DNA from: Acididesulfobacillus acetoxydans
GTDB taxonomy: Bacteria; Bacillota; Desulfitobacteriia; Desulfitobacteriales; Desulfitobacteriaceae
Length of the DNA: 64,000 nt
Direction: 5' to 3'
Assembly (NCBI RefSeq): GCF_902729405.1
Contig: NZ_LR746496.1
Coordinates: 2,356,001-2,420,000, forward strand
Under the pieces are notes generated by a model. The model did not search any database, was not told the DNA's origin, and saw only the letters and a list, made by a program, of their open reading frames with translations. Both the position numbers and the translations under genes were made by a program. Positions 25,413 through 57,020 of this stretch are shown one piece after another (positions within the stretch are counted from its first letter, which is position 1; every line of letters starts with the position of its first letter).

Positions 25413-25452
25413 CAACCGGAGATTGTCAAGAAACAGACAGAAACGGAGATCG

Positions 25453-25935
25453 TACAGGTTCAAGAATCGCCCCAGACTCATTAAAACCTTGCACTTAAGG
25501 CCACCTCATTTGACAGAGGTGGCTTCAAGTTTTTCTTGAGCTGTCTCAAGCGAACGTGTGCAGTTGTGGGCCTGAATCAGAAGATGACAAGTCCAGTCTG
25601 TGCGAAACTTTATCGGAGTGATGCAGTGGTGGGGGCAAGGATGGTTCGGATACTCTTGCATTTACCGGGACTGGATATATAATAATATCGTAATGGACTA
25701 ATAGCTGAAGATATTCATGGGTGCACATTATTTCCAAATCCCCAGGGTAGAATATCTTCGAATTATGAATTCAGGCTATTGTTCCAAAGAGCGCGCCGGT
25801 AGCGGGAATTCAGGGGGGAAGAGTGCAGTCAGACGTCAGACCGGGAAGGGTTTAAGAGGGGCGGCAGTCGGAGCAGCGGCCGAACAAGAAGAAACAGAAA
25901 AGAAGAGTGCGGGTCAAGTGGGACAAGTAGAATTC
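25453..25935 (+). repeat. Duplicated segment, copy 1: DUF169 3' end, terminator and FmdE leader
   Basis: This stretch is nearly identical to 29337-29453 joined to 31392-31752. It begins with the last codons of the DUF169 gene (QVQESPQTH stop), includes its terminator (25500-25523), the single target sequence GTGGGCC (25566-25572) and most of the FmdE leader with its promoter (TTGCAT 25656, TATAAT 25678). It lacks the FmdE gene, and at 25936 it is joined to a methyltransferase fragment. It preserves the state before the IS inserted in copy 2. Confidence 0.9.
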
Positions 25936-25937
25936 CC

Positions 25938-26251
25938 GATTTTACGATTACAACCAGACACGGGGACGGCTGACTGACCCGGTCGAATGGGCTGAAGGTG
26001 GCGACTATTTCGACTTCATCCGGCACGGAGAAGAAGAGATGCGCAGGAGTTTTCCCGCGGTTCTGCGCATCGACGTTGGTCAGCGGGCGGGCCTATATCT
26101 TTGTTCCCCCTATCGCGAACCCTTTTCCCAGATAAGCTTTGCATTGCCCCGGCGCCTCCAGCAGGCCAGACAAAGAGCCTCTGTGCCCCGGATGACGTTT
26201 GGCGTTAGTGACAAATCATTTGTACCAGCAGATAGAGGGCGGTGCCGCTAA
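25938..26251 (+). pseudogene. 3' fragment of a methyltransferase gene
   Basis: In frame, this reads FYDYNQTRGRLTDPVEWAEG and on through GEEEMR, VGQRAGLYLC: the C-terminal third of a paralogue of the methyltransferase at 12937-13623, without its SAM-binding half. About 45 extra codons follow the point where the intact protein ends, and the tail overlaps the 3' end of the opposite-strand ChrA gene. It starts abruptly at the border of the duplicated segment, so it is a recombination remnant. Confidence 0.8.
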
Positions 26252-29416: not shown

Positions 29417-29453
29417 TTGAGCCGTCCCAAGCGAACTTGTGCAGTTGTGGGCC

Positions 29454-31384
29454 TCGGCTTCGACAGTTTTTCGTGGATTTAGGCATCCGTTAAAAAATGG
29501 ATGCCTTTATTCATGCGGGTTTCAGGGTTTATCCACACGCAAAAACAGCGAAAATGTGTAGGCACACGATTCCGTGGATAAGTTGCGGATAGCCCCTATT
29601 AATACTTGAGGGTATGTCTGACTTGTGGTAAAATGTAGGCATGTATATACGTGTGACGTCTCGTAAGAACAAAGATAATAGTGTGGTTAAGTACGTTCAG
29701 TTAGCTCATAACGTTCGTAATCCGAAAACCGGCTCTCCGCAGGCGAATGTCCTTTTTAATTTCGGACGTTTGGATCGGTTGGATATGGAGTCCCTTCGCC
29801 GGCTGGAACGCAGTATCCGGCGTTTCCTCGGGGAACCGCTCGATCCGGTGGAGGCCCCGAAACCGGAGCTCCTCTCCTGTCGCCCGCTGGGCGGTGCCTG
29901 GTTTCTGGATCAGCTCTGGCGGAAACTCGGAATCGATAGCATTTTGAAGCGCCGCTTGAAAGAGCGCGAGTATCGCACGGAGGTGGAACGCGCTCTGTTC
30001 GCGATGGTGGCTAACCGGGCTTTGGCACCTTTGAGCAAGCTGCAATTGGAGAAATGGGTGCCCGAAAAGGTAGTCATTCCCGGCCTTGCGAACGTGGAGG
30101 TTCAGCACTGCTATCGCGCGATGGATTTCCTCTTGGAATCCCAGGAAGACGTTGAGCGAGAGGTGTTTTATGCCGTAGCGGACTTGTTCTATCTTGAAGT
30201 CGATCTCCTGTTCTTCGATACCACCTCGACTTACTTTGAAATGGACGCGTGGGACGATGAGGAACAGGACTTAAAGGCGCTGGGTCACTCAAAGGACAGC
30301 CGGCCCGATTTGCCCCAAATTGTGATCGGCCTGGCGGTCACACGGGACGGGATCCCGATTCGCTCTTGGGTCTGGCCCGGCAATACCTCCGATATGTCGG
30401 TTATCCCGGAAGTCAAGCGGGATCTGGCGGGTTGGAAGTTGGGGCGGGTCGTGAGTGTGATGGATAGGGGTTTTTCCTCCGAGGAAAACTTGCGGATTCT
30501 GCAAAGGACCGGGGGCCACTACATCGCTGGAGAACGTCTTAGAGCCGGTAAGCCCGAAGTCGAGGAGGCCCTCTCCCATCCCGGAAGGTTTCGCACGCTT
30601 CAAGAGAATCTGGAGGCGAAAGAAGTCGTTGTCGGCCACGGTGAGGCCCGCATCCGCTACGTTCTGGTCCGTAACCCTGCGGAAGCCAAGCGTGATGCCC
30701 ATACCCGCACCAAGCACCTGGAGAAGCTGAAGCAGAAGCTCGCGAAGCTGAAGGAGCTGGACGGAGAAGCGCACACCAAAGCCCACTGTGCTCTCTACAG
30801 CCATATCGTCTACAAGCGATATTTGCAAATCGATGCTAAAGGCAACCTTAGGATTAACCAGAAAGCGGTCAAAGCCGCGGAAAGGCTGGACGGGAAATAC
30901 CTTATCCGCACCTCGGATGACACCCTCTCCATAGAGGATATCACCTTGGGCTTCAAACAGCTTTGGGAAGTGGAGCGGGCTTTTCGCACGCTCAAAACGA
31001 CTCTGGAGCTACGGCCTGTTTACCACCGAAAAGACGATCGGATCTGTGCCCATGTCCTGCTGTGTTGGCTGGCTTTGCTCCTGGTACGCCTGGCAGAAGT
31101 AGAGACTCAACAAACCTGGGCCAACCTTCGTTTCGAACTGGAGAAAATTTATCTCGTCGAGTGGGAATCGACGGACGGGAAAGTCTTTCAAAGGACAGAA
31201 TTAACCCAAGAGCAAACGGGTATTTTTTCAGCACTCAAATTGCCGGAACCCCCGAGAATATGGGATATTTCGCTTCCCAAGGGACAAAAAGTGTAGGTAC
31301 ACGGTACGTTATCCACAAGTGCCTGAAGCCCAGATGCCATAAGGGTTTGAGGCACTTCCCGTGTCTACGGACTGTCGAAAGCGA
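29454..31384 (+). mobile_element. Insertion sequence, IS1634-like (IS4 group)
   Basis: A 1931-bp element with imperfect terminal inverted repeats (left TCGGCTTCGACAGT, right TCGCTTTCGACAGT read inward). It is flanked by a 7-base direct repeat GTGGGCC at 29447-29453 and 31385-31391. The uninterrupted site exists in copy 1 (25566-25572), which fixes both ends exactly. A hairpin GGCATCC...GGATGCC with T-rich tail near the left end (about 29482-29510) may block read-through from the host gene. Confidence 0.92.
29641..31296 (+). CDS. Transposase, IS1634 family
   Basis: DDE transposase of 551 aa, the size expected for IS1634-type elements. The first Asp is in LLFFDTTSTYFE, the second in VSVMDRGFSSEENL, and the Glu in LWEVERAFRTLKTTLELRPVYH with the following Y/R/K pattern. 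The frame is uninterrupted, so the element may be active. It fills most of the IS and starts at an ATG 187 bases from the left end. Confidence 0.93.
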   Translation: MYIRVTSRKNKDNSVVKYVQLAHNVRNPKTGSPQANVLFNFGRLDRLDMESLRRLERSIRRFLGEPLDPVEAPKPELLSCRPLGGAWFLDQLWRKLGIDSILKRRLKEREYRTEVERALFAMVANRALAPLSKLQLEKWVPEKVVIPGLANVEVQHCYRAMDFLLESQEDVEREVFYAVADLFYLEVDLLFFDTTSTYFEMDAWDDEEQDLKALGHSKDSRPDLPQIVIGLAVTRDGIPIRSWVWPGNTSDMSVIPEVKRDLAGWKLGRVVSVMDRGFSSEENLRILQRTGGHYIAGERLRAGKPEVEEALSHPGRFRTLQENLEAKEVVVGHGEARIRYVLVRNPAEAKRDAHTRTKHLEKLKQKLAKLKELDGEAHTKAHCALYSHIVYKRYLQIDAKGNLRINQKAVKAAERLDGKYLIRTSDDTLSIEDITLGFKQLWEVERAFRTLKTTLELRPVYHRKDDRICAHVLLCWLALLLVRLAEVETQQTWANLRFELEKIYLVEWESTDGKVFQRTELTQEQTGIFSALKLPEPPRIWDISLPKGQKV

Positions 31385-31752
31385 GTGGGCCTGAATCAGA
31401 AGATGACAAGTCCAGTCTGTGCGAAACTTTATCGGAGTGATGCAGTTGTGGGGGCAAGGATGGTTCGGATACTCTTGCATTTACCGGGACTGGATATATA
31501 ATAATATCGTAATGGACTAATAGCTGAAGATATTCATGGGTGCACATTATTTCCAAATCCCCAGGGTAGAATATCTTCGAATTATGAATTCAGGCTATTG
31601 TTCCAAAGAGCGCGCCGGTAGCGGGAATTCAGGGGGGAAGAGTGCAGTCAGACCGGGAAGGGTTTAAGAGGGGCGGCAGTCGGAGCAGCGGCCGAACAAG
31701 AAGAAATAGAAAAGAAGAGTGCGGGTCAAGTGGGACAAGTAGAATTCCCGAG
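31385..31752 (+). repeat. Duplicated segment, copy 2 (FmdE leader side)
   Basis: Continuation of the segment described at 25453 after the IS insertion. It carries the promoter and leader of the FmdE gene at 31871. It differs from copy 1 by a few bases, including the absence of seven bases in GTCAGACGTCAGACC. Confidence 0.88.
31475..31502 (+). promoter_or_regulatory. Promoter of FmdE gene 1
   Basis: TTGCAT (31475-31480), a 16-base spacer, TATAAT (31497-31502). It overlaps the recurrent motif AATATCGTAAT (31503-31513), a probable regulator site shared with other promoters in the window. Confidence 0.65.
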
Positions 31753-31870
31753 CGCCGAGCGAAAGGATTAGAAAAGGAGGTTTTGATTCGCGACTGTTTC
31801 ACAAGAGTTCCTAATCACACGAAGGTGAGAACGAGCATAAGTAACGATGCGAGAAAAGGAGATGTGGTCG
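31515..31870 (+). ncRNA. Long structured leader of FmdE gene 1
   Basis: About 360 bases separate the predicted transcript start from the FmdE start codon. A perfect 10-base inverted repeat (GAAGATATTC 31526-31535 / GAATATCTTC 31569-31578) encloses a smaller helix. Further blocks (GACCGGGAAGGGTTTA, GCCGAACAAGA, AGTGCGGGTCAAG) are conserved in the leader of FmdE gene 2 although the sequences between differ. This pattern suggests a structured, possibly ligand-sensing RNA. A short TTG-started frame at 31784 behind AAAGGAGG could be a leader peptide. Confidence 0.5.
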
Positions 31871-32530
31871 ATGACAGTTGATGCCAAGGATTCCCCGGTT
31901 TCGGGTCCGGCGAAACACGAATTGCCGGATTGGGCTTTCGAATTTCACGGACACAAGTGCCCGTTTATGCCGTTGGGCTATCGGATGGGCCGATACGCCA
32001 TGGAATTGTTAGGTGTGGAAAAAGAAAAGGATCACGGCATGTTTGTCTTTTCCGAGATGGGGGAAGGGCATCCGCAAACTTGCATGATGGACGGTCTGCA
32101 AATCGCAACCGGCTGTACCTATGGCAAGAACCTTCTGACCCGGCTGAACTATGGCAAGGTCGCGGCGGTTTTCTATCATCCGGACAAGGGAGCGCTGCGG
32201 ATCAGTGTTCCAACCAAGTTTCAAACGGAGATCGGCAAGTTTGAGTTTTTTGTCTATCGCAAGAAAGGTGTAGAGCCGTCTGCCATACCCGATGAAGTTG
32301 TCGATGAAGTCGTACAATACGTGATGACCCAACCCATTGAAACCATGGCCCAGGTGCGTCAATTGCCCGGCTTCAAATATGCCCCCACTCCGGGTTCTTT
32401 CAATAAGGTCGTTTGCAGCGAATGTGGAGAAACTGTCTTCGAACGCTATGCCAGGACAGTCGGTGGCAAGGTGCAATGCATTCCTTGCTCGGGTTATGAA
32501 CGGACCCTGGCCCGCAAACCCATTCTCTAG
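31871..32530 (+). CDS. FmdE-family protein with C-terminal zinc ribbon (gene 1)
   Basis: 219-aa protein. The FmdE domain occupies about residues 15-150 and starts with FHGHKCPFMPLGYRMG; Cys, His and a later GEGHPQTCMMDGLQ and ATGCTYGKNL form the conserved metal/redox positions. A C-terminal zinc ribbon has CSECG...CIPC. FmdE was named from formylmethanofuran dehydrogenase operons, but stand-alone copies occur widely in anaerobes and their role is not established. ATG 31871 follows AAAGGAGA. It is expressed from a long leader and followed, after a terminator, by a TSUP permease, the same order as at 52377. Confidence 0.85.
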   Translation: MTVDAKDSPVSGPAKHELPDWAFEFHGHKCPFMPLGYRMGRYAMELLGVEKEKDHGMFVFSEMGEGHPQTCMMDGLQIATGCTYGKNLLTRLNYGKVAAVFYHPDKGALRISVPTKFQTEIGKFEFFVYRKKGVEPSAIPDEVVDEVVQYVMTQPIETMAQVRQLPGFKYAPTPGSFNKVVCSECGETVFERYARTVGGKVQCIPCSGYERTLARKPIL

Positions 32531-32589
32531 CAGGGTTGCAAATCCGTACAACGCGACAAAAGAAAAAGCGGGTGAAGCCCCGGGTGTGT

Positions 32590-32736
32590 GTGGTCAAAGC
32601 CGGGGAAACCTTCGAGGCTCAACAATGTCACCAGCGCAAAGAGGTGGTGGTGACAAATTACGCGCAAAAGCTCGGTGACGACGGGTACTGCCAAACCTGC
32701 TTTGATGCTTTGATTCATCGCAAGCAACAAGACTAG
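32590..32736 (+). pseudogene. Fragment of a second FmdE zinc ribbon
   Basis: VVKAGETFEAQQCHQRKEVV and the following YCQTCFDALIHRKQQD closely match the C-terminus of FmdE gene 2 (52377-53024), but one Cys is changed (CHECK to CHQRK) and no FmdE domain precedes it. It marks an unequal recombination between the two FmdE loci. Confidence 0.85.
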
Positions 32737-32929: not shown

Positions 32930-32958
32930 TTGAATGATACCGTGGGAGGGTATATAAT
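32930..32958 (+). promoter_or_regulatory. Promoter of TSUP permease 1
   Basis: TTGAAT (32930-32935), 17-base spacer, TATAAT (32953-32958). Two variants of the recurrent motif follow (AATATTGCAAT at 32974 region and AATATCGCAAT at 33028 region) in an otherwise gene-free 408-base gap. Confidence 0.6.
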
Positions 32959-33144
32959 ATATGAGTAAACAATAATATTGCAATGAGGAGATGAATAAGT
33001 TGTTCCGGCTCAGAGTGGGGGAAAAATAATATCGCAATTACATTTACTGTAAGAGAGGAAGCAATGTGAGAAAACGCTGAGGGGTAAAGAAAAAAGAGAT
33101 TGTTTAGTAAGCACAGAATTTAGGATTGACAGGGGGAGAGTCAG

Positions 33145-38315: not shown

Positions 38316-38364
38316 GAATATGTAATAGATGCGAGTTAAGTCGCTGGAAGAGGGGAGTTTATTT

Positions 38365-38811
38365 ATGGAGAAGATGCCCGTCGATGCTATTAAAATGGAA
38401 ACAGCCCGAAAGACAATTGTGGCTCAGCATGACAAGTATGGTAAAACAATGGGCGTGAACGGTTGTTTTGGAAGTTCAAATGTCGGACAGATGAGCGGTT
38501 TCATGCCGCGTGAGATCGTGCGGACAATTCCCAATGCGTTTATGCGCTGCCCGCTGGCCCTGTATCCGGAAATCGAAGGTCCGAGTCAGGTCTTGCTCTA
38601 TGATGATTATCAAGTGGTGATCGATGGCTGTGAAGCGCGCTGTTTAGCCAAAGCATTGGCTAAGGCGGGGGTAAAAATTGATCTCAGTTATGCCCTGGAT
38701 GAGGATTTTCATCTGGAGAAAACACCGGGACCGGATTTTGACGAGGACAAGATGAAAGAGATCACGCAGAAGATCATGGCGGATATTCGGAAGTTAAGTG
38801 TCGAACAGTGA
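38365..38811 (+). CDS. DGC-domain putative metal-binding protein, 1 of 5
   Basis: 148-aa soluble protein of the DGC family, annotated elsewhere as putative zinc-binding. It has an N-terminal Cys in VNGCFGSSNVGQ, a second conserved Cys in AFMRCPLAL and the signature VIDGCEARCLAKALAKAG. Metal binding is inferred from the family. The start at ATG 38365 follows GAGGGGAG; a longer frame starts at 38329 inside the transcript leader. It stands alone, just upstream of the arsenic genes, and has its own promoter and terminator. Confidence 0.78.
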   Translation: MEKMPVDAIKMETARKTIVAQHDKYGKTMGVNGCFGSSNVGQMSGFMPREIVRTIPNAFMRCPLALYPEIEGPSQVLLYDDYQVVIDGCEARCLAKALAKAGVKIDLSYALDEDFHLEKTPGPDFDEDKMKEITQKIMADIRKLSVEQ

Positions 38812-38883
38812 CGGAAACAACTTAAGGTAGGGGCTAACCTGGTAAAAGCCTGATGAGGGGGCAGCCTTGACTGTCGAGCGAAT

Positions 38884-38926
38884 GGGACACTTTCGGTGCG
38901 CTTCGATGCCGTCAGTGTCCCTATTT
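38884..38926 (+). terminator. Terminator after DGC gene 1
   Basis: GGGACACT (38884) pairs with AGTGTCCC around a GC-rich inner helix, followed by TATTTT. The frame drawn through this region (38867-39151) is not credible. Confidence 0.6.
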
Positions 38927-39056
38927 TGGGATCTTGGGTTTAAGAAGTCAGGGACAAGGACCGAAAGGAAAACGAGACGAAGTCCTGGCGAGCGGGCGGC
39001 CTGGCAGCAGTATCAATGGGCGAGGAGGGGCATGATAAATATTTCGGAACAACATA

Positions 39057-39084
39057 TTGACATATATAAGTATGTGATTATAAT
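39057..39084 (+). promoter_or_regulatory. Promoter of the arsR-arsP operon
   Basis: TTGACA (39057-39062), 16-base spacer, TATAAT (39079-39084), with dyad ACATAT...ATATAAGTATGT across the spacer that may be an ArsR operator. Confidence 0.7.
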
Positions 39085-39200
39085 AAGATTCAAGCCCTAC
39101 TTTCGATGGGCAGATTTGAAAGATACTCGAAAGGAAAGTGGAAAGAACTGACTTAACTTAAACGGAGTAATCCTAAACAGTCGGAGAAAGGGGAACGTTT

Positions 39201-39512
39201 ATGAGAAAGGAGAGGAGTAGAGTGACGGCAGAACTACCCATGGTTGGAGGCTTGCCCGAATTTAACGAAGTTGAAATCCGGCAGGAAGTCAAACGCTACA
39301 AAGCTTTGGGCGATGAGACCCGTCTCAAAATGTTTCGGGTTTTAGAAACCAGCGAGCATTGCGTGTGTGAGTTGATGGACATTTTTCAGTTGAATCAATC
39401 GCTCGTTTCCCATCATGTCAAAGTCTTGGAAAATGCCGGCTTGGTGCTGGGGCAGAGAGTGGGGAAATTTGTCTACTATCGCGTCAACCACCCCATGCCT
39501 AAAGACGTCTGA
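39201..39512 (+). CDS. arsR: ArsR-family repressor
   Basis: 103-aa winged-helix regulator. YKALGDETRLKMFRVLETSEHCVCELMDIFQLNQSLVSHHVKVLENAGL is a classic ArsR core with the As(III)-binding CVCEL motif. ATG 39201 lies after GAGAAAGGGG; a GTG at 39222 is an alternative. It precedes the ArsP-type permease by about 120 bases and very probably controls it. Confidence 0.9.
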   Translation: MRKERSRVTAELPMVGGLPEFNEVEIRQEVKRYKALGDETRLKMFRVLETSEHCVCELMDIFQLNQSLVSHHVKVLENAGLVLGQRVGKFVYYRVNHPMPKDV

Positions 39513-39629
39513 AGCCAGGGGCTTCCGCGCGAAGCATTCGGTGACGGATCAGGGCGAACATAGCACTCGCGGGGGCTCAGTCACGGGGATGGCTTAAACT
39601 TATTCTCAGTCGGGAGAGGAGAAATTTAT

Positions 39630-40580
39630 ATGTTGCAGGCTTTTGCGGATTTTGTCACCTTCAAGCTGTTTAAGCTGCTGCCCAGCAGCCGCTTGGGGAC
39701 GGCTCTGGACTTTTTCATCAATGATACTCTTAAGATATTCATCATGCTGGCGGTGATCATTTTCCTTGTCTCTTTAATCCGGAGTTTTTTCTCGCCGGAA
39801 AGGACCCGGAAAATTCTCAGCCAGAAGAAGGAGTTTGTCGGCAATGTCCTCGCGGCTCTTTTGGGGATCGTGACCCCGTTTTGTTCTTGCTCGGCGGTGC
39901 CGGTATTTATCGGTTTTGTGGAAGCGGGAGTGCCCCTTGGTGTAACCTTTTCTTTCTTGATTTCCTCCCCGATGGTCAATGAAGTGGCGTTGGTCATGCT
40001 CTGGGGCATGTTCGGGTGGAGAATCGCGGCCATTTATATTGCCACCGGTGTCATTGTGGCCATCGTCGGGGGGGTGATCATCGGCCGGCTGAAATTGGAG
40101 CACTTGGTCGAGGAGTATGTGTACGATATTAAGATGGGTGAGTCCGAGCTAGCGGCTATGACTTGGCGGGAACGTGTGGATTATGCTTGGAGCTATGTCG
40201 TTGATATTCTAAAAAGGGTTTGGTTGTACGTTATCATCGGGATTGCCATCGGAGGTTTTATGCATGGCTACGCACCCGCGAACTTCCTGGTCAAATATGC
40301 CGGACCCGGCAGCTGGTATGCGGTCCCATTGGTTGTGGCCATTGGGGTGCCTCTTTATTCCAATGCCGCCGGAATCATTCCGATTGTCAATGTCCTGTTT
40401 GAGAAAGGGATGGCTCTGGGAACCGTGTTGGCCTTTATGATGTCTGTGACCGCTTTGAGTCTGCCGGAGATGATCATCTTGCGCAAGGTTCTCAAACCCA
40501 AACTCATTGGTATTTTTGTCGGGATCTTGACGGTTACCATTCTTTTCGTGGGGTATCTGTTCAATTGGATCATGCACTAG
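39630..40580 (+). CDS. ArsP-type permease (organoarsenical exporter family)
   Basis: 316-aa membrane protein of the UPF0718/ArsP permease family. The hallmark TPFCSCSAVPVFIGFVEAGVPLG (about residues 80-102) carries the paired Cys implicated in trivalent organoarsenical binding in characterised ArsP; PMVNEVALVML and a matching PLYSNAAGIIP segment in the second half are also present. It follows an arsR gene and precedes a small thioredoxin-like gene, a standard order. Export of methylarsenite-like compounds would fit the ArsM methyltransferase 1 kb further on. Confidence 0.85.
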   Translation: MLQAFADFVTFKLFKLLPSSRLGTALDFFINDTLKIFIMLAVIIFLVSLIRSFFSPERTRKILSQKKEFVGNVLAALLGIVTPFCSCSAVPVFIGFVEAGVPLGVTFSFLISSPMVNEVALVMLWGMFGWRIAAIYIATGVIVAIVGGVIIGRLKLEHLVEEYVYDIKMGESELAAMTWRERVDYAWSYVVDILKRVWLYVIIGIAIGGFMHGYAPANFLVKYAGPGSWYAVPLVVAIGVPLYSNAAGIIPIVNVLFEKGMALGTVLAFMMSVTALSLPEMIILRKVLKPKLIGIFVGILTVTILFVGYLFNWIMH

Positions 40581-40685
40581 ACGGGTACACCCCGGGGTTT
40601 AAGGTATTCGGATAGGTCTTAACAGAAGAGGGACGAATGTGGTACGATAATATTAGACTTAACGAAATTAGAGGAGCGATGCGAT

Positions 40686-40931
40686 ATGAAGGTCAAAATC
40701 TTGGGATCCGGTTGTTCCAACTGTGCCAAACTGGAAAAAGTAGTGCGTCAGGCCATTGATGATTTGGGGATCGTGGCGGACGTTGAGAAGGTCCAGGATG
40801 TGGCCGGAATCATTTCCTACGGGGTCATGAGCACACCGGCCCTGGTTATCGACGAACAGGTCAAATTGGTGGGCAAGGTGCCAAACCGGGTCCGTATGGT
40901 GGAAATATTGAAAGAAGCTCTACCCCAGTGA
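40686..40931 (+). CDS. Small thioredoxin-fold protein with CxxC (TM0996/MTH895 type)
   Basis: 81-aa thioredoxin-like protein; the redox motif is GCSNCAKLE and the cis-Pro is in MSTPALVIDE. This family is commonly linked to ArsP-type permeases and may keep thiols or arsenicals reduced. ATG follows GAGGAGCG. A variant of the recurrent promoter motif (ACGATAATATTAG) lies 30 bases upstream, so it may have its own promoter. Confidence 0.85.
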   Translation: MKVKILGSGCSNCAKLEKVVRQAIDDLGIVADVEKVQDVAGIISYGVMSTPALVIDEQVKLVGKVPNRVRMVEILKEALPQ

Positions 40932-41009
40932 ATGGAAACGGGCAACGTGGGGACTCCCCTGCCGTACCCGCAATATCCGGAAAGGCATAAAACTTCTGCT
41001 GTAAAGGGC

Positions 41010-41072
41010 GCAGTTCCTGAAGATGGGAAACGCCTGATGCAAGTGAAAGGATGTCGCACCCACCAACCCTAA
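41010..41072 (+). pseudogene. 3' fragment of an arsR gene
   Basis: AVPEDGKRLMQVKGCR followed by a stop matches the C-terminus of the ArsR at 60100-60447 (AVPEDERRLMQTKGCR). No DNA-binding domain precedes it. Confidence 0.75.
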
Positions 41073-41112
41073 GCTTGGGAATAGACCTCAGCTATCTCAG
41101 CTATTTGGTTGC

Positions 41113-41140
41113 TTGATTTATCAACATTTCTTGATATAAT
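41113..41140 (+). promoter_or_regulatory. Promoter and operator of arsR (second)
   Basis: TTGATT (41113-41118), 16-base spacer, TATAAT (41135-41140). Between them lies the inverted repeat ATCAA-N6-TTGAT (41120-41135). The same half-sites with the same spacing recur at 41477-41500, so both are likely bound by the ArsR encoded here. Confidence 0.75.
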
Positions 41141-41149
41141 GGAGATACT

Positions 41150-41455
41150 ATGATTGATGTCGCGAAAATTTCCAAAGCTTTGAGTGACCCCATTCGCTAC
41201 AAAATACTGTTGATGCTTGTAGATCATCAGAGCAACGAACTGTTATGCTGCTCACCCGCCCTTGAGGGTGCCTGCAATTGTGAGATTATGGCGGAGTTTG
41301 AGATGATTCAGTCCAGGGTTTCGTACCATATGAAGGAGCTTGCCGGAGCAGGGCTCGTAACCGAAGAGCCTAGAGGTAAATGGAAATTCTATTCTTTAAA
41401 CATGGATACCCTGAAACAATATACCCGGCAAATTGGGGCGGATTTTAAATTCTAA
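41150..41455 (+). CDS. arsR: ArsR-family repressor with extra cysteines
   Basis: 101-aa regulator; ISKALSDPIRYKILLMLVDH and EFEMIQSRVSYHMKELAGAGLVTEEPRGKW define the winged helix. Instead of CVCEL it has an insertion LLCCSPALEGACNCEI, with four Cys that probably form the metalloid site. It is autoregulated through ATCAA-N6-TTGAT and sits directly before arsM and acr3. The ribosome site is weak (GGAGATACTATG). Confidence 0.88.
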   Translation: MIDVAKISKALSDPIRYKILLMLVDHQSNELLCCSPALEGACNCEIMAEFEMIQSRVSYHMKELAGAGLVTEEPRGKWKFYSLNMDTLKQYTRQIGADFKF

Positions 41456-41476
41456 GGCCCCGCTTTTTTTGGGGGG

Positions 41477-41500
41477 TTACATCAAAAAAAATTGATGTAA
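41477..41500. promoter_or_regulatory. ArsR-type operator before arsM
   Basis: Perfect dyad TTACATCAA-N6-TTGATGTAA. Its core equals the operator in the upstream arsR promoter, linking arsM and acr3 to the same regulator. Confidence 0.8.
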
Positions 41501-41583
41501 TGAGGGCTGAAAATGGATGAAGGTAGGAGAATGGGCAACTCATAGTGGCAGGTAGGGCTCAAATTCGGGGAGGTAACAAAATA

Positions 41584-42390
41584 ATGTCAAATGTCGAAAA
41601 TGACCACATTCGTCAATCGGTGCGCAAAAACTATGCTTCCATCGCGCTTCAGGGAAAGGGCAGTTGTTGTTCACCGGGTGCCAACTGCTGTGGTAATGAA
41701 GACTCCGGTCTCATGACGCAAATTTCTCAACAGCTGGGTTATTCCTCCTCAGAACTTGGGGAAGTGCCGGAGGGAGCCAATATGGGTTTAGGGTGTGGTA
41801 ATCCTCAGGCGATAGCACACCTGAAGTTGGGTGAAGCTGTTCTCGATTTGGGCAGCGGAGGCGGGTTCGACTGTTTTCTGGCCGCTAAACAAGTGGGAGC
41901 GGCGGGGCGCGTGATTGGGGTGGATATGACTCCGGAGATGGTGAGTAAGGCCAGAAAAAATGCCGCTGCCACCGATTATCATAATGTTGATTTTCGTTTG
42001 GGCGAAATTGAGAACTTACCGGTGGCGGATAATTCAGTTGATGTGATCATTTCTAACTGTGTGATCAACTTGTCTCCGGATAAACAAAGGGTATTTGATG
42101 AGGCCTATCGTGTGCTCAAGCCAGGCGGGCGCTTGGCCATTTCTGATGTGGTAGCTTCAGCCCCCCTGCCGGCGGAAATACGGAAAGACCTGGAGCTCTA
42201 TGCCGGCTGCATGGCGGGCGCCAGCCTTGTGGATGACTTAGAGGGGATGCTGCAAAAATCAGGGTTTAGGAATATCCGCATTCGGCCGAAAAGTGAATCG
42301 CGGGAGTTTATCCGGGAGTGGGCCCCGGATAGGCAGATTGAGGATTTTGTTGTATCCGCGACGATTGAAGCCTCTAAGCCCGCCGGCTAA
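41584..42390 (+). CDS. arsM: Arsenite methyltransferase
   Basis: 268-aa SAM-dependent enzyme that methylates arsenite. The N-terminal Cys-rich segment GKGSCCSPGANCCGN is typical. Motif I is VLDLGSGGGFDCFLAAKQVG. The conserved catalytic Cys lie in IISNCVINLSPDK and LYAGCMAGA, as in ArsM/AS3MT. ATG 41584 follows GGGAGGTAAC. It lies under the ATCAA/TTGAT operator, upstream of a small protein and Acr3. Confidence 0.94.
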   Translation: MSNVENDHIRQSVRKNYASIALQGKGSCCSPGANCCGNEDSGLMTQISQQLGYSSSELGEVPEGANMGLGCGNPQAIAHLKLGEAVLDLGSGGGFDCFLAAKQVGAAGRVIGVDMTPEMVSKARKNAAATDYHNVDFRLGEIENLPVADNSVDVIISNCVINLSPDKQRVFDEAYRVLKPGGRLAISDVVASAPLPAEIRKDLELYAGCMAGASLVDDLEGMLQKSGFRNIRIRPKSESREFIREWAPDRQIEDFVVSATIEASKPAG

Positions 42391-42557
42391 TGAAAGAGCG
42401 TTTTCCCCAAGCCTTCTTGTTGCAGGTACCATTGGCGGCAAAGGATGTTCAGGGGCTGCATTCTTTATGGAAACTGGCCCGGCAAGTTTTGGGGTGAGCG
42501 GTTCGCCGGGGTGGTTATGTTTGTGCCCGCGGGAGAGGCGGAGGAGGTAAGAACCGG

Positions 42558-42848
42558 ATGAACATCCATATCACCCCGCAGGCGGCGGCTGTGATTCGTC
42601 GCCGGGGAGGGCAGGTGATCCTATTCGAGGGCCGGCTCACCGGGTGTGTTGCCGGGAATATCCCGGCCCCAATGATGGAAGTGGGCAGGCCGAGGCGGCC
42701 ACCGGATCATTATATCGTGGTGGAAGAAGAGGGTGTAGCGGTTTATCTGGACAAGGTCCTGCGCTCATATCCCGGGACGGCTGAGATCAGTGTGGTGCCG
42801 CATCGCTGGAACAAGGAGAGTCTGTCGTTTAATTATCGGGAAAACTGA
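42558..42848 (+). CDS. Small protein between arsM and acr3, possibly CC/Se-motif-like
   Basis: 96-aa soluble protein. Its layout (an N-terminal IHITPQAAAVIRRRGGQVILF, a central segment with one Cys, GRLTGCVAGNIPAPMMEVGRP, then VAVYLDKVL and ISVVPHR) resembles small HesB-like proteins, including those I recall as 'CC/Se motif' (seleno)proteins found near arsenic and selenium genes. Here only one Cys is present at that place. ATG follows GGAGGAGGTAAG. The family match is from memory and tentative; its location suggests an arsenic-related role. Confidence 0.55.
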   Translation: MNIHITPQAAAVIRRRGGQVILFEGRLTGCVAGNIPAPMMEVGRPRRPPDHYIVVEEEGVAVYLDKVLRSYPGTAEISVVPHRWNKESLSFNYREN

Positions 42849-42884
42849 AGTCTAGACGTGTTCACTTTTAAGGAGGAGAGCGAA

Positions 42885-43967
42885 ATGAATGAATTGCCGG
42901 TAAGCCGCAAATTGTCAATGTTGGACCGCTTCCTGACCTTGTGGATTTTCTTGGCCATGGCGGTCGGGATCGGAGCCGGATACCTGATTCCGGGCATGGC
43001 CGCTTGGCTCAATAGTTTTCAAAGCGGCACGACCAATATTCCTTTGGCCATCGGACTGATCATCATGATGTATCCGCCCCTGGCTAAAGTAAAATATGAG
43101 GAAATAGGCAAGGTCTTTAGAAATGGGAGAGTCATGACCATATCCCTGATTCAAAACTGGATCATCGGTCCGCTGCTCATGTTTGTATTAGCGGTGATAT
43201 TTCTGCATGGTTATCCCGAGTACATGGCCGGTTTGATCATGATCGGTTTGGCCCGCTGCATCGCCATGGTCATCGTTTGGAACAGTCTGGCGAAAGGGGA
43301 TCCCGAGTACGCGGCCGCTTTGGTCGCGCTCAATTCCATCTTCCAGGTGATCTTCTACTCGTTTTATGCTTATGTCTTCATCTCTGTTTTGCCGCATTGG
43401 CTGGGATTGACGGCGGACACGGTCAAAATCAATCTCAGTATTTGGGAGATGGCTCAGAGTGTGCTGCTTTATTTAGGTATTCCTTTTGTGGGGGGCCTGC
43501 TCACCAGGCTCATCTTCATACCGGTCAAAGGAAAGGAATGGTATGAAACAAAATTCGTTCCGAAAATCAGTCCTTTGGCTTTAATCGCCCTGCTCTTCAC
43601 CATCATTCTTATGTTTTCCCTTAAAGGTAAGTATATCGTATCCCTGCCCATGGATGTCGTACGCATCGCCATTCCCCTGGTGATCTATTTTGCCGTGATG
43701 TTTACGGTCTCCTTCTTCATGGGTTGGCGGCAGGGTGTTCCTTACTCTCAGACGGTGACGCTCGCCTTCACGGCGGCCAGCAACAACTTTGAGCTGGCCA
43801 TTGCCGTCGCGGTGGCTGTGTTTGGGATCAACTCCGGCGAGGCCTTTGCGGCGGTCATCGGCCCCTTGATTGAAGTGCCAGTGATGATCGGACTGGTGAA
43901 CTTTGCCTTGTCTTGGGGACGGAAGTATTTTAACCCGGATGGAAGTTCCACGCGGGCGAGGACCTGA
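42885..43967 (+). CDS. acr3: Arsenite efflux transporter Acr3
   Basis: 360-aa member of the ACR3 branch of the bile/arsenite/riboflavin transporter superfamily; expels As(III). Family segments: [22 protein letters not shown] at the start, [20 protein letters not shown] with the essential Cys in helix 4, and [21 protein letters not shown] near the end. ATG 42885 follows AAGGAGGAG. It ends the arsR-arsM operon and is closed by a terminator. Confidence 0.95.
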
Positions 43968-43975
43968 GTTCGGAG

Positions 43976-44014
43976 AACGGCTCCTTACTGTTGCAGTGGG
44001 GAGCCGTTCTTTGC
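43976..44014 (+). terminator. Terminator after acr3
   Basis: AGAACGGCTCC pairs with GGGAGCCGTTCT around a 12-base loop, followed by TTGCGG. A second hairpin (AAGAAGTAGCC / GGCTACTTCTT, 44036-44076) follows and could serve the opposite strand. The rest of 43968-44257 has no gene. Confidence 0.75.
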
Positions 44015-44257
44015 GGGTATGGGCAATATGACAAAAAAGAAGTAGCCCACCCCTGAGACGGAGGCTACTTCTTCGTAAACCCCTACGGCCGCTCACTGCG
44101 GCCCGGTTGTGCAGGCTGGGATGCTCGTAACATCCCGGCCTTCAGTATGTATGTGATACCGTGCGGAGGCAGTCAATACAAGGAAAACGAGAAAGGAACG
44201 GGCCTTGAGTGCCCGGCGAATTCCGCTGCCCTGTCCCCGATAGGGACGAAGAAACAA

Positions 44258-44614
44258 TTAAAAAGGGCCGGATCCGCCTGACAATCTATCGATTACTTCT
44301 TGTACCAATTGTATCTCTTCATCAATATTCAATAAGACTGCATATTTCTCGTTATTTTTGGGATCAAAATCCTTGGTAATGACTATTTCTGCATCCGGGC
44401 TAATTTTGGCAAGCTCAAATTCCTTTGAAGCACATTTAGCCGGACAGCCATTTAAGGCAATATACTTTTCGTTAACACCACTTTCGTTGTTAAGAGGTAA
44501 ACTTAAATTGGGAAGTACGCGAACTATTTGGTCGTCAAGGAGAAATTCAGCCACTGTTTTTGTCATCATACTCACATTACAACGGCCTTGACAAGGGAAA
44601 ATTCCAATAGTCAT
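44258..44614 (-). CDS. DGC-domain putative metal-binding protein, 2 of 5
   Basis: 118-aa protein starting MTIGIFPCQGRCNVSMMTKT, with the signature present as ALNGCPAKCASKEFELA (Asn instead of Asp). The Cys pattern (two near the N-terminus, two in the signature) agrees with the other DGC proteins here. The base composition is more AT-rich than its neighbours, suggesting a separate origin. I choose ATG 44614 behind GGAGTG; a GTG at 44626 would add four residues. Confidence 0.78.
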   Translation of the reverse strand: MTIGIFPCQGRCNVSMMTKTVAEFLLDDQIVRVLPNLSLPLNNESGVNEKYIALNGCPAKCASKEFELAKISPDAEIVITKDFDPKNNEKYAVLLNIDEEIQLVQEVIDRLSGGSGPF

Positions 44615-44776
44615 TATTTCTTTCACTCCTACTCTACCTTGAATTTGTTCACTGCTACCTCAAACTCTCTGTCATTGGACGGCAGTGCGTTGAATAAAGC
44701 TGAACTCTTTGCGCACAGGCCTACACCTATGGCAGAGAGTCCTCTAGAATTTCGCAAGGTCAGGCGGACGCAGAAC

Positions 44777-45130
44777 TCAGATTTGGCCTAAGGGTCCGGG
44801 GTTCCGATTCTGAAAGGGACACGCCGCCCCTGCCTGACGGGCAAAGAGACGCTTGTGTGAGAGAAACTGGGCGACGGTTTCATTGTTGCCCAAGCTGATT
44901 CCTCCGAGCCTCCACTCCCGGAAAGTGTGCCAAAATTCTTGTTCCGCTACAGTGTGCGAATAGTGCTCCGCTTCGGCATCGTAGGCCCAAAAAACGTCGA
45001 CCCATAACATACCTTTACGGCTGAGGACCAAAAGAAAATGATTGAGCTCTGGGTCGGGAGAATCAAGGACTTTTAGAAGCAAATGTGAACGACCGCTTGG
45101 ATAATCAGTGCGGATATAGACGGGTTTCAT
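44777..45130 (-). CDS. Hypothetical protein (117 aa)
   Basis: A soluble protein with no membrane segment, starting MKPVYIRTDYPSGRSHLLLKV after AAGGAGTATTC. It is rich in aromatic and charged residues (WVDVFWAYDAEAEHYSHT) and has a single Cys near the end. I do not recognise a family. It lies downstream of the CMD gene on the same strand and may share its transcript. Confidence 0.6.
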   Translation of the reverse strand: MKPVYIRTDYPSGRSHLLLKVLDSPDPELNHFLLVLSRKGMLWVDVFWAYDAEAEHYSHTVAEQEFWHTFREWRLGGISLGNNETVAQFLSHKRLFARQAGAACPFQNRNPGPLGQI

Positions 45131-45260
45131 CAGAATACTCCTTCCCCTGCACAAAAGAACCGCTAACATGAGGGAGGGAAGGCAACCCGGAGGAGTTCCC
45201 TTCCCTTCCCCTGTCTGGTATGCTCTTGCAAAACACTAAACACTCCGCCGGGGAGAAATA

Positions 45261-45638
45261 CTAGGCCTGCGGAAAGATGCGCAGTCCCGTGTTGACCCGG
45301 TTCATGCCAGTCGAAGCATCGATGACGGCAATCATTTCGAGAAGCTCTTCTTCGCTGACTCCCATCTTTTTCAGCTGCTGGGTGTGTGAGGTGATGCACA
45401 TGTCGGAGCCGTTATTGATGGAGGTGGTGAGGGCAATGAAGAATTTGGTCTTAGCGTCCAGTTTGCCGGGAGCCATTGCTACCTGCATTTTCTCCAGGGT
45501 GGCTTTCATATAAGCGGGGAAATTGGCCAGAGCGCGGAAAGTCGGTGGGACCATTCCTTTGTCCTCTTCGAGGTGCTTGAACATCCCTTGAACTTCGGGT
45601 GAGGCTTCCTGATCTTGAATGAGTTTAACCGTTGGCAT
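45261..45638 (-). CDS. Carboxymuconolactone-decarboxylase (AhpD-like) family protein
   Basis: 125-aa all-helical protein of the CMD/AhpD family. The active-site region reads NNGSDMCITSHTQQLKKMGVSEEEL. In AhpD-type peroxidase partners this is CxxCxxxH; here the first Cys is Ser, leaving one Cys and the His, so disulfide chemistry of the usual kind is unlikely. ATG follows AAGGAGGATT. Two partial copies (5' end at 37984, 3' end at 59935) occur in the window. Confidence 0.85.
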   Translation of the reverse strand: MPTVKLIQDQEASPEVQGMFKHLEEDKGMVPPTFRALANFPAYMKATLEKMQVAMAPGKLDAKTKFFIALTTSINNGSDMCITSHTQQLKKMGVSEEELLEMIAVIDASTGMNRVNTGLRIFPQA

Positions 45639-45770
45639 GTTAAAAATCCTCCTTTTTTTCGATGCTTCGCTCTCAAAGTCGGGAGAGGGCTCATCTCCAG
45701 ATTAGGATATGATTATATGGACATTAAACATTGTACACTTACACGGAGGTTTTGACAAGGGCAAACAGGA

Positions 45771-45905
45771 AAGATTCAAGCGTCTGATGCAAGCGAAAGG
45801 ATGTCGTGCGACTGCTGACCATGAGCCGGCGCAGTTCCCGGTTGACTTCATCCTGGGATCAGAAAAAGTGCCGAATTCCCTGTACCATTCAAAAGAAGAA
45901 ACGAC
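45771..45905. pseudogene. Fused fragments of an arsR gene and a glutamate dehydrogenase gene
   Basis: Bases 45771-45812 (plus strand) read FKRLMQAKGCR, the end of an ArsR as at 60400. Bases 45819-45905 match the opposite-strand gdh at about 54482-54575, reading VVVSSFEWY before going out of frame. Neither has a start or stop in context. The remaining 45.64-46.08 kb contains AT-rich promoter-like sequence (ATAATGATATGATTATATAG near 45950) but no further gene. Confidence 0.75.
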
Positions 45906-46078
45906 CACAGCTCAAGAAAAATCTGTGGTAAACCGGGCAAAATAATGATATGATTATATAGGAAATGACTGAAGGCCTTATTCTAAACACTATGATCATT
46001 TTAGCTTGGTCAGGCATGCAATGTCACTTTGCCGGTTCGATGCCGGCTGCAGAGAGAATAAGGTGGAGGAGAAGGTTC

Positions 46079-46345
46079 ATGCTTTATGGTAAACTCAAGG
46101 ATTATCGGGCTTTGCTAACGTTTCCTTCTTTAACGGAGGCCTTGGGGGCTGAGAGGATTCTTGACCGGTCCGGTTGTCCTTTTGCGTCTATTCCGACACC
46201 CCGCAGTCTGCGTTCCGGCTGCAACACCTCTCTGTGTCTGCCGCTGGAGCGTAAGGAAATTATCGATGATCTAATCGATGACGGGGTGGTGTTTACCGGT
46301 GTCTACGAGGCCCGGGAGGATGGATTCGCACCGTTGACGTGGTGA
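46079..46345 (+). CDS. Se/S-carrier-like protein (DUF3343 family)
   Basis: 88-aa protein with the pattern MLYGKLKDYRALLTFPSLTEALGAERIL...GCPFASIPTPRSLRSGCNTSLCLPLE, the DUF3343 family described as putative Se/S carrier-like. Cys in RSGC and SLCL are the likely reactive positions. ATG 46079 follows GGTGGAGGAGAAGG. It is followed after 90 bases by a cysteine desulfurase and then a selenoprotein gene, supporting a role in moving sulfur or selenium. The exact reaction is not established. Confidence 0.8.
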   Translation: MLYGKLKDYRALLTFPSLTEALGAERILDRSGCPFASIPTPRSLRSGCNTSLCLPLERKEIIDDLIDDGVVFTGVYEAREDGFAPLTW

Positions 46346-46435
46346 GGTTAGGCGCCTTGAAGAAGCCAGTAAGGTCCTTGGAAAGTTCAACAACCACGTT
46401 TAGGCGTAAAGTCAGGTGGTGAAAGGAGTGTGGCT

Positions 46436-47581
46436 ATGATTTATTTGGACAATGCGGCGACAACTTGGCCGAAACCTGAGGACGTGGGCCTGGCAGTGCA
46501 AGAGGCTCTCATGCGTAAAGGAGGAAATGCCGGCCGGGGTGGGCATGGTGCGGCCATGCAAATGGCCAGGCTCATCCATCAAACGCGGGTGGATTTATGC
46601 ACGTTGTTTGGAACGAACGATCCGACTCGGGTCATCTTTACTCAGAATGCGACACATGCCTTGAATTTGGCGCTCTTTGGACTCATGCGTCCCGGAGACC
46701 ATGTGATCACCTCTTCATTGGAACATAACGCGGTGGCCAGGCCACTATATGCTTTGGGACAGCGGGGAGTGGAAGTCAGTGAAGTGCCTGGAGTTCCGGG
46801 AGCTGAGTTTGATTTAGCGGCTTATCGCAAGGCCTTTCGATCCAATACTAAGTTGGTGGTTACCCTGCACGCTTCCAATGTCACCGGAACCATGCTGCCC
46901 ATCCGGGAAATAGGGCAGATAGCCCATGAGCGGGGGGTCTATTATCTTCTGGATGCGGCGCAGACGGCCGGGGTTTTTCCCATCGATATGAAACGCCTGC
47001 CACTGGATCTGCTGGCGTTTCCCGGGCATAAGGCACTTCTGGGCCCACAGGGAACAGGAGGACTCCTCATAAACGCCGATCTGCAATTGGAACCCCTAAT
47101 TTACGGAGGTACGGGCAGCCTTTCTGAAGAGGTGCGTCAGCCCGACTTTTTGCCGGACGCCTTGGAAAGCGGGACACTCAACGGAATCGGCCTTGCCGGC
47201 TTGGGAGCAGGAGTCCGTTACATTCTGACGGAAGGGATGGATAAGATTAGGGTCAGAGAACAGGAGCTTTGCCGCAAGCTATGGGAGGGGTTAAAGAAAA
47301 TTCCGGGTGTGAAACTGTATGGAAATGAACAGGTGGAACGGCGCGCTCCGATCATTGCCTTTAACCTGGGTGAGATGGACTCTGTCGAGCTGAGCTATAT
47401 CTTAGAAGAAAGGGCAGGGATCGTGGCCCGGGCAGGTCTGCACTGTGCGTCTCAGGCTCACCGGATGATCGGGACACTGGATCAGGGCGTCGTGCGCTTC
47501 AGCCCTTCACATTTTACGACCGCAGAGGAAATTGATGCGGCTTTGCAGACAGTCAGGGACCTCGCGCAAGGGCTGAATTAA
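46436..47581 (+). CDS. Cysteine desulfurase / selenocysteine lyase family protein
   Basis: 381-aa fold-type I PLP enzyme that removes S (or Se) from cysteine (selenocysteine). PLP Lys is K199 in AFPGHKALLGPQG; the persulfide-forming Cys is C337 in ARAGLHCASQAHR. The start MIYLDNAATTWPKPE is typical for this branch. I prefer ATG 46436 behind AAAGGAG over the GTG at 46430. It lies between the Se/S-carrier gene and the HesB-like selenoprotein. A C-terminal fragment of a paralogue is found before the second selenoprotein (60605). Confidence 0.92.
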   Translation: MIYLDNAATTWPKPEDVGLAVQEALMRKGGNAGRGGHGAAMQMARLIHQTRVDLCTLFGTNDPTRVIFTQNATHALNLALFGLMRPGDHVITSSLEHNAVARPLYALGQRGVEVSEVPGVPGAEFDLAAYRKAFRSNTKLVVTLHASNVTGTMLPIREIGQIAHERGVYYLLDAAQTAGVFPIDMKRLPLDLLAFPGHKALLGPQGTGGLLINADLQLEPLIYGGTGSLSEEVRQPDFLPDALESGTLNGIGLAGLGAGVRYILTEGMDKIRVREQELCRKLWEGLKKIPGVKLYGNEQVERRAPIIAFNLGEMDSVELSYILEERAGIVARAGLHCASQAHRMIGTLDQGVVRFSPSHFTTAEEIDAALQTVRDLAQGLN

Positions 47582-47678
47582 AAGATGAGAGGGAGCAGCG
47601 TGATATGGGTTGGCAGTCAAGGGTCGTGCATCTTGGCAATAGGGCCAAGATTTTGCCGGTGAAGTTTAATCAACTTTA

Positions 47679-47707
47679 TTGACATGGGCATATAACGATA
47701 TTATAAT
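47679..47707 (+). promoter_or_regulatory. Promoter of HesB-like selenoprotein 1
   Basis: TTGACA (47679-47684), 17-base spacer, TATAAT (47702-47707). The spacer and -10 contain the recurrent motif in reverse (AACGATATTATAATTG). The preceding hairpin CTTGGC-AATAGG-GCCAAG (47630-47650 region) may end the desulfurase transcript. Confidence 0.75.
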
Positions 47708-47852
47708 TGAATCATGACAAGGCTGTTCAGGAGAGTTCCAGCGGATATTCGACTTATGGTTTGGATATTCTAGCCTTACAGGATGGGAGTGGTCAATCGA
47801 CTCACGGTGGAGGTGAGTGTCGCGAGTCGGTCATTTAAACCCGTGTGTACCC

Positions 47853-47875
47853 GTGTGAAGGTTCGTACTTTCACC
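47853..47875 (+). promoter_or_regulatory. Conserved hairpin in the selenoprotein 5' UTR, copy 1
   Basis: A 23-base segment (GTGTGAAGGTTC... TACTTTCACC) is repeated with one change at 60998-61020 before the second selenoprotein gene. It can fold GTGAAxGT/ACTTTCAC. Its conservation in an otherwise different leader suggests a function. Confidence 0.5.
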
Positions 47876-47919
47876 AGAACATTCAGACAGACGGACCCTG
47901 AAAAGAGGAGGCACTAAAA

Positions 47920-48240
47920 ATGGTCAGCATTACGGCAGAAGCGGCGGTGAAAGTACAGGAGGTACTGCACCAACAAAATCTTGAATCAGGATATCTGAGA
48001 GTCTATATCGCGGGCTTTGGCTGAGGGGGGCCGAATTTCGGCTTGACTCTGGATGAGTCTGCAAAAGAAAACGATACGGTCGATGAGGAAAACGGAGTAA
48101 GAATCTTATCCGAAGATAAGCTGGCTTCTTATCTGGAAGGAGCCGTGATCGACTTTGTAGAGTCTCCTGCCGGCGGCGGTTTCCAGATTAAGACAGCGGC
48201 CAGTGGACAAGAGTGCGGCAGTTGCGACAGCTGCGGCTAA
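47920..48240 (+). CDS. HesB-like selenoprotein 1 (in-frame UGA = Sec)
   Basis: 106-aa IscA/HesB-fold protein with an in-frame TGA at codon 35 (48022-48024), exactly where the family's conserved Cys stands (GFG-U-GGPNFGLTLDE). The reading frame is open on both sides and homologous throughout. A stem-loop GACTC-TGGAT-GAGTC (48045-48059), with G in the loop about 30 bases after the UGA, fits the bacterial SECIS model. The C-terminus ends CGSCDSCG. ATG follows AGAGGAGGC. It probably binds iron-sulfur, arsenic or selenium species through Sec and the tail Cys. A second copy lies at 61068. Confidence 0.9.
48045..48059 (+). promoter_or_regulatory. Candidate SECIS stem-loop 1
   Basis: GACTC/GAGTC stem with TGGAT loop, 20 bases after the UGA; a second small helix (GCCGA/TCGGC) lies between. 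The sequence is identical in copy 2 (61193-61207). Confidence 0.7.
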
Positions 48241-48458
48241 GTCCCGAGTGTAACGCAGTTCTGGGATGAGTTGTGGGATGATTGCCAAGGCAAGTACAAG
48301 GATGAGTGCTGGGACAAGTTCCGGGTGTAGGTGTCATTGAAGCGGGCTCCAAAGGGTGGGAATGAGGACCCCGCAGACCCCGGATACCGCGGCATGTGTG
48401 GTAGAAAGTATCGGATATAGGTTAGATGAGGATCATTTTCTAGGAGGAGGAGAAGACG

Positions 48459-48833
48459 ATGGCGGAAAAACCCGGGTTTATCATGTGTGTCTGTACCGGG
48501 AAATGTCCGGGCTTTGCACAGATGGATATTTGGGATTTTATTAATCAGGTGCGGGTGGAATTGCCTGTGGAATATGGCTTTATTCACCCACAGCTCTGTG
48601 AGGAAGACGGAGACCGTTTCCTGTCCGATTACCTGAAAGCCGGACGGCCGGTGGTTATCGGGGCCTGTTCGCCCAATATGCAGGTAAAGATGTTCAAGCA
48701 GGCTTTTGCCGACGCCGGTCTTGATGTCAAGAAAGACCTTGTAGCCATTGACATCCGGGACATGACCACGGAGAAGGCCGTCGAGACGGTGAGTGCGGCC
48801 CTGGATGGCATGGAGGGAAAGAAGGATGAGTGA
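48459..48833 (+). CDS. Stand-alone HdrA N-terminal-like Fe-S protein
   Basis: 124-aa protein resembling only the N-terminal domain of HdrA (heterodisulfide reductase subunit A): IMCVCTGKCPGF near residue 10 in place of the HdrA CxCG pattern, LCEEDGDRFL in the middle, and RPVVIGACSPNMQVKMFKQAFADAGL matching HdrA's VVAACSPRMHEPTF...AG. The flavin domain of HdrA is absent. The Cys set suggests a small Fe-S or thiol-binding unit. ATG follows AGGAGGAGGAG. It is first gene of a five-gene operon whose members overlap (48459-50872). Confidence 0.75.
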   Translation: MAEKPGFIMCVCTGKCPGFAQMDIWDFINQVRVELPVEYGFIHPQLCEEDGDRFLSDYLKAGRPVVIGACSPNMQVKMFKQAFADAGLDVKKDLVAIDIRDMTTEKAVETVSAALDGMEGKKDE

Positions 48834-49110
48834 AACCACATTCATGGGGGTGACTCGGGCAAAAATCCCCTGGGCTCCCGTGATCGATTATGAAAAGTGT
48901 ACCTTTTGCCTGGAGTGTGACAAATTTTGCCCGCACAAGGTCTATGAAGTGAACCGGGAAGAACGGCGGCTCGTGGTCGCCCATCCCGAACATTGTGTGG
49001 TCTTCTGCCGGGCCTGCTCCAAAACCTGTGGTCCGGATGCTTTGAGTTTCCCAAACAAGACGGAAGTCACGGACTTAATCAAGCGCCTGCGCAAGGAGGA
49101 GGGAGCATGA
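48826..49110 (+). CDS. Ferredoxin-like 4Fe-4S protein
   Basis: 94-aa protein with two Cys clusters: CTFCLECDKFCP (canonical CxxCxxCxxxCP) and CVVFCRACSKTCGP (CxxxCxxCxxxC). It probably carries electrons for the products of this operon. It overlaps the HdrA-like gene by eight bases and the DGC-GcvH gene by four (ATGA). Confidence 0.85.
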   Translation: MSETTFMGVTRAKIPWAPVIDYEKCTFCLECDKFCPHKVYEVNREERRLVVAHPEHCVVFCRACSKTCGPDALSFPNKTEVTDLIKRLRKEEGA

Positions 49111-51890: not shown

Positions 51891-51914
51891 GGTGGCTTGG
51901 TGGAAAAATAACTC

Positions 51915-51942
51915 TTGCATTTATCATTGACGGGTATATAAT
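51915..51942 (+). promoter_or_regulatory. Promoter of FmdE gene 2
   Basis: TTGCAT (51915-51920), 16-base spacer, TATAAT (51937-51942), overlapping AATATCGTAATTG. The arrangement equals that of FmdE gene 1. Confidence 0.65.
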
Positions 51943-51954
51943 AATATCGTAATT

Positions 51955-56974: not shown

Positions 56975-57020
56975 TGTGATACACCACCTTATCAATATAT
57001 AATACTTTACGCATTTATTG

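Follow-up and report, generated by a model that had tools for sequence, protein, structure and literature searches.

Introduction

The published core of CsoR operators is TAC-X9-GTA (PMC3902906), and in S. aureus the CsoR-family member CstR is a sensor of per- and polysulfides that has tauE under its control (PMC5480029). The cis-regulatory leaders collected in Rfam, Moco among them, are the second group of described systems with which we compared the locus presented here.

The window, i.e., the whole stretch of 64,000 nucleotides that was analysed, is derived from Acididesulfobacillus acetoxydans, an acid-loving sulfate reducer. A. acetoxydans INE has one chromosome of 4.52 Mbp (PMC8982180). 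In an initial annotation, a long leader in front of a gene for an FmdE protein was proposed to be an undescribed structured RNA that controls FmdE genes.

A non-coding leader in three copies

The annotated long untranslated leader could be confirmed: about 360 bases (31515-31870) upstream of the ATG of fmdE1 at 31871 are non-coding. The leader is present in three copies within the window and in no further copy elsewhere on the chromosome of 4,520,225 bases. Copy 1 was absent from the initial annotation.

31871-32530, plus strand: fmdE1 (Pfam FmdE, E = 1.3e-27), likely start at 31871
25566-25939, plus strand: leader copy 1, about 99% identical to copy 2, no fmdE behind it
31385-31751: leader copy 2 (fmdE1 leader), the copy flagged in the initial annotation (31515-31870)
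51911-52225, plus strand: leader copy 3 (fmdE2 leader), 78% identical to copy 2; fmdE2 is at 52347-53024

Ordered blocks common to the leaders of fmdE1 and fmdE2 were also found as described, the fmdE2 leader being located at 51911-52225. The nearest relative among the genomes compared is Peptococcaceae bacterium CEB3 (the sister species), which was placed in the genus Acididesulfobacillus (PMC8982180), and its fmdE1 shows 92% nucleotide identity to the fmdE1 gene studied here. This identity is unevenly distributed, with 100% over at least 120 nt (32017-32136) and 78-90% elsewhere in the gene, a patchwork that hints at recombination. Copy 1 belongs to a duplicate of about 490 bp (25451-25939) that consists of the DUF169 3′ end, the intergenic region and the leader, without fmdE behind it. 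The first 120 bp of this duplicate are 92% identical to the other copy and the remainder about 99%, a difference that points to gene conversion or to two events.

An ORF of 86 codons traverses copy 1. Together with the presence of three copies, this ORF would fit an origin of the leader from a mobile repeat or a gene remnant. In both the fmdE2 leader and CEB3, a stop terminates this frame within a few codons, which speaks against a gene remnant and also led us to reject an upstream ORF as a feature of the leader. A leader peptide behind AAGGAGG was likewise rejected, since neither spacing nor frame is conserved. As for a mobile repeat, all copies lie within 27 kb and inside larger duplicated units, none is found elsewhere in the genome, and BLAST of the whole leader over a plasmid collection revealed no homologue. 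An origin from a mobile repeat or a gene remnant is therefore highly improbable.

In agreement with the view of an undescribed element, no known Rfam family, including Moco, matches the leader. At all three leaders no family of Rfam 15 came near the gathering threshold, and relaxed searches returned low-scoring chance matches only. At another site of the window (62444-62634) a cobalamin riboswitch (Rfam RF00174, 111 bits) is located upstream of a CbiM-like gene at 62768.

Operon duplication as source of leader similarity

CEB3 harbors a single, shorter leader copy upstream of a tandem fmdE1-fmdE2, followed by a gene for a TSUP transporter, as one operon. In the present genome a separate leader copy precedes fmdE2 alone, and further traces of rearrangement are visible around fmdE1.

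32589-32735, plus strand: fmdE2 3′ remnant behind fmdE1, 147 bp, 85% identical to the fmdE2 tail (52877-53023) and 88% to the sister species
31713-31782, plus strand: 3′ conserved leader element ending in AAGGAGGTT, 79-81% identity among three versions, ungapped
29447-31392: insertion element with a DDE transposase at 29641-31296 (Pfam DDE_Tnp_1)

Based on the gene order in CEB3 and the 147-bp fmdE2 remnant behind fmdE1, the simplest history would be that the fmdE1-fmdE2-TSUP operon was duplicated in the present lineage, and that each copy then lost one fmdE. The second duplicated unit is split by the insertion element. GTGGGCCT flanks the inserted stretch on either side and is found a single time in the copy without the insertion; imperfect terminal inverted repeats (CGACAG) can also be recognized.

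The initial annotation had stressed that the leaders are conserved although the FmdE proteins are strongly diverged. This contrast is misleading, since the tandem paralogues fmdE1 and fmdE2 are old, and the copying of their leaders, as part of the operon, came later. As a consequence of the duplication, the fmdE2 tail is the proper yardstick for leader conservation. Identity among the three versions of this tail is 85, 88, and 92%, compared to 80, 81, and 83% for the 5′ leader element, and it goes down to 40-71% in the rest of the leader and in the region behind fmdE2. The divergence of the leader thus resembles that of the duplicated coding tail, and the sister species could dispense with a block exceeding 100 nt. 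Both observations would be in agreement with a leader transcript that has no regulatory role, a duplicated spacer too young to diverge with selection on the promoter only. On the other hand, the 5′ and 3′ elements show 79-83% identity versus 40-62% for adjoining sequence, and the 3′ element is retained in CEB3 although the block before it is gone, so that we consider such a spacer rather improbable. The leader elements are under some, moderate selection, yet not conserved beyond the history of the operon itself. Operon duplication together with moderate selection explains the conservation of the leader, and this removes the main argument for an ancient conserved RNA. A duplicated operon whose copies have reciprocally lost genes can mimic such an RNA.

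Promoter of the leader and a CsoR-type dyad

Judged from the alignments, the best-conserved part of the fmdE leader region is promoter DNA. The best-conserved stretch (ACTCTTGCATTTA to TATATAATAATATCGTAATNGACTAATAG) comprises a weak −35, a perfect −10, and the element AATATYGYAAT.

31475-31502, plus strand: fmdE1-leader promoter, −35 TTGCAT at 31475-31480, 16-nt spacer, −10 TATAAT at 31497-31502
31503-31513, plus strand: AATATYGYAAT element, immediately 3′ of the −10
31482-31496, plus strand: CsoR-type dyad, TAC-N9-ATA at this site with one mismatch to TAC-N9-GTA; it overlaps the spacer and reaches the −10
32938-32958, plus strand: TSUP1 promoter, perfect TAC-N9-GTA dyad against TATAAT
57017-57037, minus strand: promoter of the SLAC1/TDT transporter gene, perfect TAC-N9-GTA dyad against TACAAT

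The fmdE1-leader promoter is shared by all copies and by the sister species; it is missing from the automatic scan because its −35 matches at only three of six positions. Among 46 genomes of the family, TATAATAATATYGYAAT is confined to these promoters, including one upstream of a TSUP gene in a third genome, from another genus, where the leader has no hairpin-1 arms (see below). Two further elements, ATAATATYGYAAT, were seen before TSUP1 (32972-32984 and 33026-33038).

Both fmdE leader types of this genome deviate from the dyad at a single base, and the fmdE1 promoter of the sister species carries it in perfect form. The pattern WTAYC-N7-GGTATAYAATA has three matches genome-wide, all of them in this cluster (reversed control: 0), and the strict form of dyad plus −10 occurs twice in the window versus 0.01 times expected from trinucleotide-Markov sequence; these counts overstate the surprise, because the pattern was formulated after the sites had been seen. 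CsoR-family genes number four in this genome and six in the sister species, with none in the fmdE cluster, and in both species a TAC-N9-GTA dyad is found upstream of a csoR-trx (thioredoxin) gene pair.

The region 38329-50869 of the window has the gene content of a dense sulfur/arsenic-type cluster: apart from several ArsR-family regulators and an ArsP-like permease, it encodes a cysteine desulfurase-like class-V aminotransferase and five DGC-domain proteins, one of which carries a fused glycine cleavage H-like domain.

Distribution

A class of leaders reaching beyond the genus did not emerge. A covariance model of the 5′ part, applied to the family and the class (81 other genomes), gave no convincing member outside the genus. 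The top hit there (G036, E 0.007) was taken as a chance match, because its short hairpin is a different one and a match to the −10 is lacking. When 13 FmdE1 loci of other phyla were searched with the same model, a single weak match (E 4.1) was obtained, which is located behind the gene rather than before it. BLAST of the middle and 3′ parts of the leader over the class resulted in short chance matches only outside the genus. The leader element therefore appears to be restricted to one genus. A literature search for FmdE together with riboswitch, TSUP or TauE retrieved no paper.

In another genus, a fragment of fmdE1 (L041, 3150-3290, minus strand; 68% identity over 47 residues) lies between a TSUP gene and an fmdE2-like gene, and may represent decay of fmdE1 in that genus.

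Hairpins in the transcribed leader

Two hairpins were found in the 5′ part of the leader.

31526-31578, plus strand: hairpin 1, arms 31526-31535 and 31569-31578, a perfect 10-bp inverted repeat (GAAGATATTC/GAATATCTTC)
31585-31631, plus strand: hairpin 2, arms 31585-31591 and 31594-31600 with 31616-31622 and 31625-31631

Hairpin 1 corresponds to the outer helix that had been described as a perfect 10-base helix of both leaders. This applies to the fmdE1 leader; in the fmdE2 leader 9 of 10 positions pair, with an A-C mismatch. Depending on the composition model, a leader of this length would contain a perfect repeat of at least 10 bp (loop 3-60) by chance with a probability of 0.7% to 7%. Across three sequences eight of the ten pairs are invariant, one is a wobble, and one is broken in one sequence; compensatory changes amount to zero. 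An inner helix that changes sequence and yet stays paired, as claimed before, was not recovered within hairpin 1, since ACGUAA/UUACGU of the fmdE2 leader is unpaired in register in the fmdE1 leader.

Hairpin 2 gave a more favorable picture, as all 14 pairs are kept between the fmdE1 and fmdE2 leaders, with two two-sided and four one-sided changes. Covariation thus amounts to two compensatory changes from two sequences only, and when the 17 gap-free pairs that the full predicted hairpin has in these two sequences were tested against random substitutions, p was 0.03. The hairpin-2 block is missing in the leader of CEB3, which joins at CGAA, the tetranucleotide flanking the block in the other copies.

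For a test of shared structure, independently predicted folds were compared to mutated controls in four segments, with nominal p values per segment. The hairpin-1 segment (p = 0.017) and the hairpin-2 segment (p = 0.032) share more structure than the controls, while values of 0.54 and 0.51 were obtained for the two segments after hairpin 2, and 0.11 for the whole leader. Compared to shuffled sequences, the fmdE2 leader folds into a more stable structure (z = −3.8), and the fmdE1 leader as a whole is no more stable (z = −0.3). In the 3′ element a 5-bp helix stays paired through three one-sided changes. Alternative hairpins around GGATTAGA and AAGGAGG in this element were dismissed, with zero two-sided changes. 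No terminator-like site was found on the plus strand.

Hairpins 1 and 2 and the 3′ element with AAGGAGG could be the sensing and switching unit of a genus-specific structured RNA, similar to a riboswitch or an attenuator. The intact pairing of hairpin 2, the shared structure of both hairpin segments, the stable fold of the fmdE2 leader and the helix of the 3′ element argue for such an RNA. The rigid sequence of hairpin 1, the unremarkable fold of the fmdE1 leader, the later segments and the whole leader in the structure test, the lack of the hairpin-2 block in CEB3 and of homologues outside the genus, and the result of the terminator search argue against it, and we regard it as unlikely. What stands of the structured RNA originally proposed for FmdE genes is a conserved non-coding leader without Rfam match and with two nominally supported hairpins. 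Its confinement to one genus, the absence of the hairpin-2 block in CEB3 and of further shared structure beyond the control, the strongest conservation lying in promoter DNA, and the CsoR-type dyad also at neighbouring non-FmdE promoters weaken that proposal. Both levels of control might also be combined: a promoter with a CsoR/CstR-type operator would sense reactive sulfur or a metal, with a second, RNA-level switch on FmdE synthesis provided by the hairpins and the AAGGAGG 3′ element of a young, genus-restricted RNA leader. This combination is doubtful as well, and should be given a low probability.

Discussion

Our data favor the view that the leader is the promoter-operator and 5′ UTR of a duplicated sulfur-related operon (fmdE1-fmdE2-TSUP), which is probably controlled at the DNA level by a member of the CsoR/CstR family. 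The three copies, the duplicated operon with its scars, the promoter motifs in common and the confinement to one genus are evident from the sequence. We infer that such a repressor, encoded elsewhere in the genome, would bind to the TAC-N9-GTA dyad abutting the −10 and would be released on sensing reactive sulfur or a metal. AATATYGYAAT behind the −10 may serve as a second regulatory or start-site element. The UTR of about 360 nt may contain one or two lineage-specific hairpins, for which tuning of mRNA stability or translation would be more likely than ligand sensing. The nominal support for hairpins 1 and 2 weakens this explanation to some extent. It is also weakened by the conserved elements that reach far into the transcribed region, where a promoter alone would not need them. 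If control by a CsoR-type operator is true, FmdE proteins are tied to sulfur or metal stress through an operator that is common to TSUP and TDT transporters, and the function of FmdE outside methanogens becomes testable through this link.

To our knowledge, FmdE is not among the described targets of CsoR or CstR. With Rfam cis-regulatory leaders such as Moco, the locus shares that a long, hairpin-bearing 5′ UTR precedes a gene with molybdenum in its family name; it differs from them in that no Rfam 15 family is near threshold at the three leaders. The locus differs from known CsoR/CstR operators as well: the fmdE leaders have short G-tracts or none within the dyad, both of their types in this genome deviate from the dyad at one base, and no csoR gene lies within the fmdE cluster; the latter two differences weaken the reading of CsoR control. 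Like the operators of S. lividans csoR and copZA and of S. aureus cst-tauE, the locus has a TAC-N9-GTA inverted repeat at the promoter (PMC3902906), which is perfect at TSUP1 and TDT and only near-perfect at the two fmdE leader types. It also resembles the S. aureus cst-tauE regulon in having TauE/TSUP exporters among the putative targets (PMC5480029).
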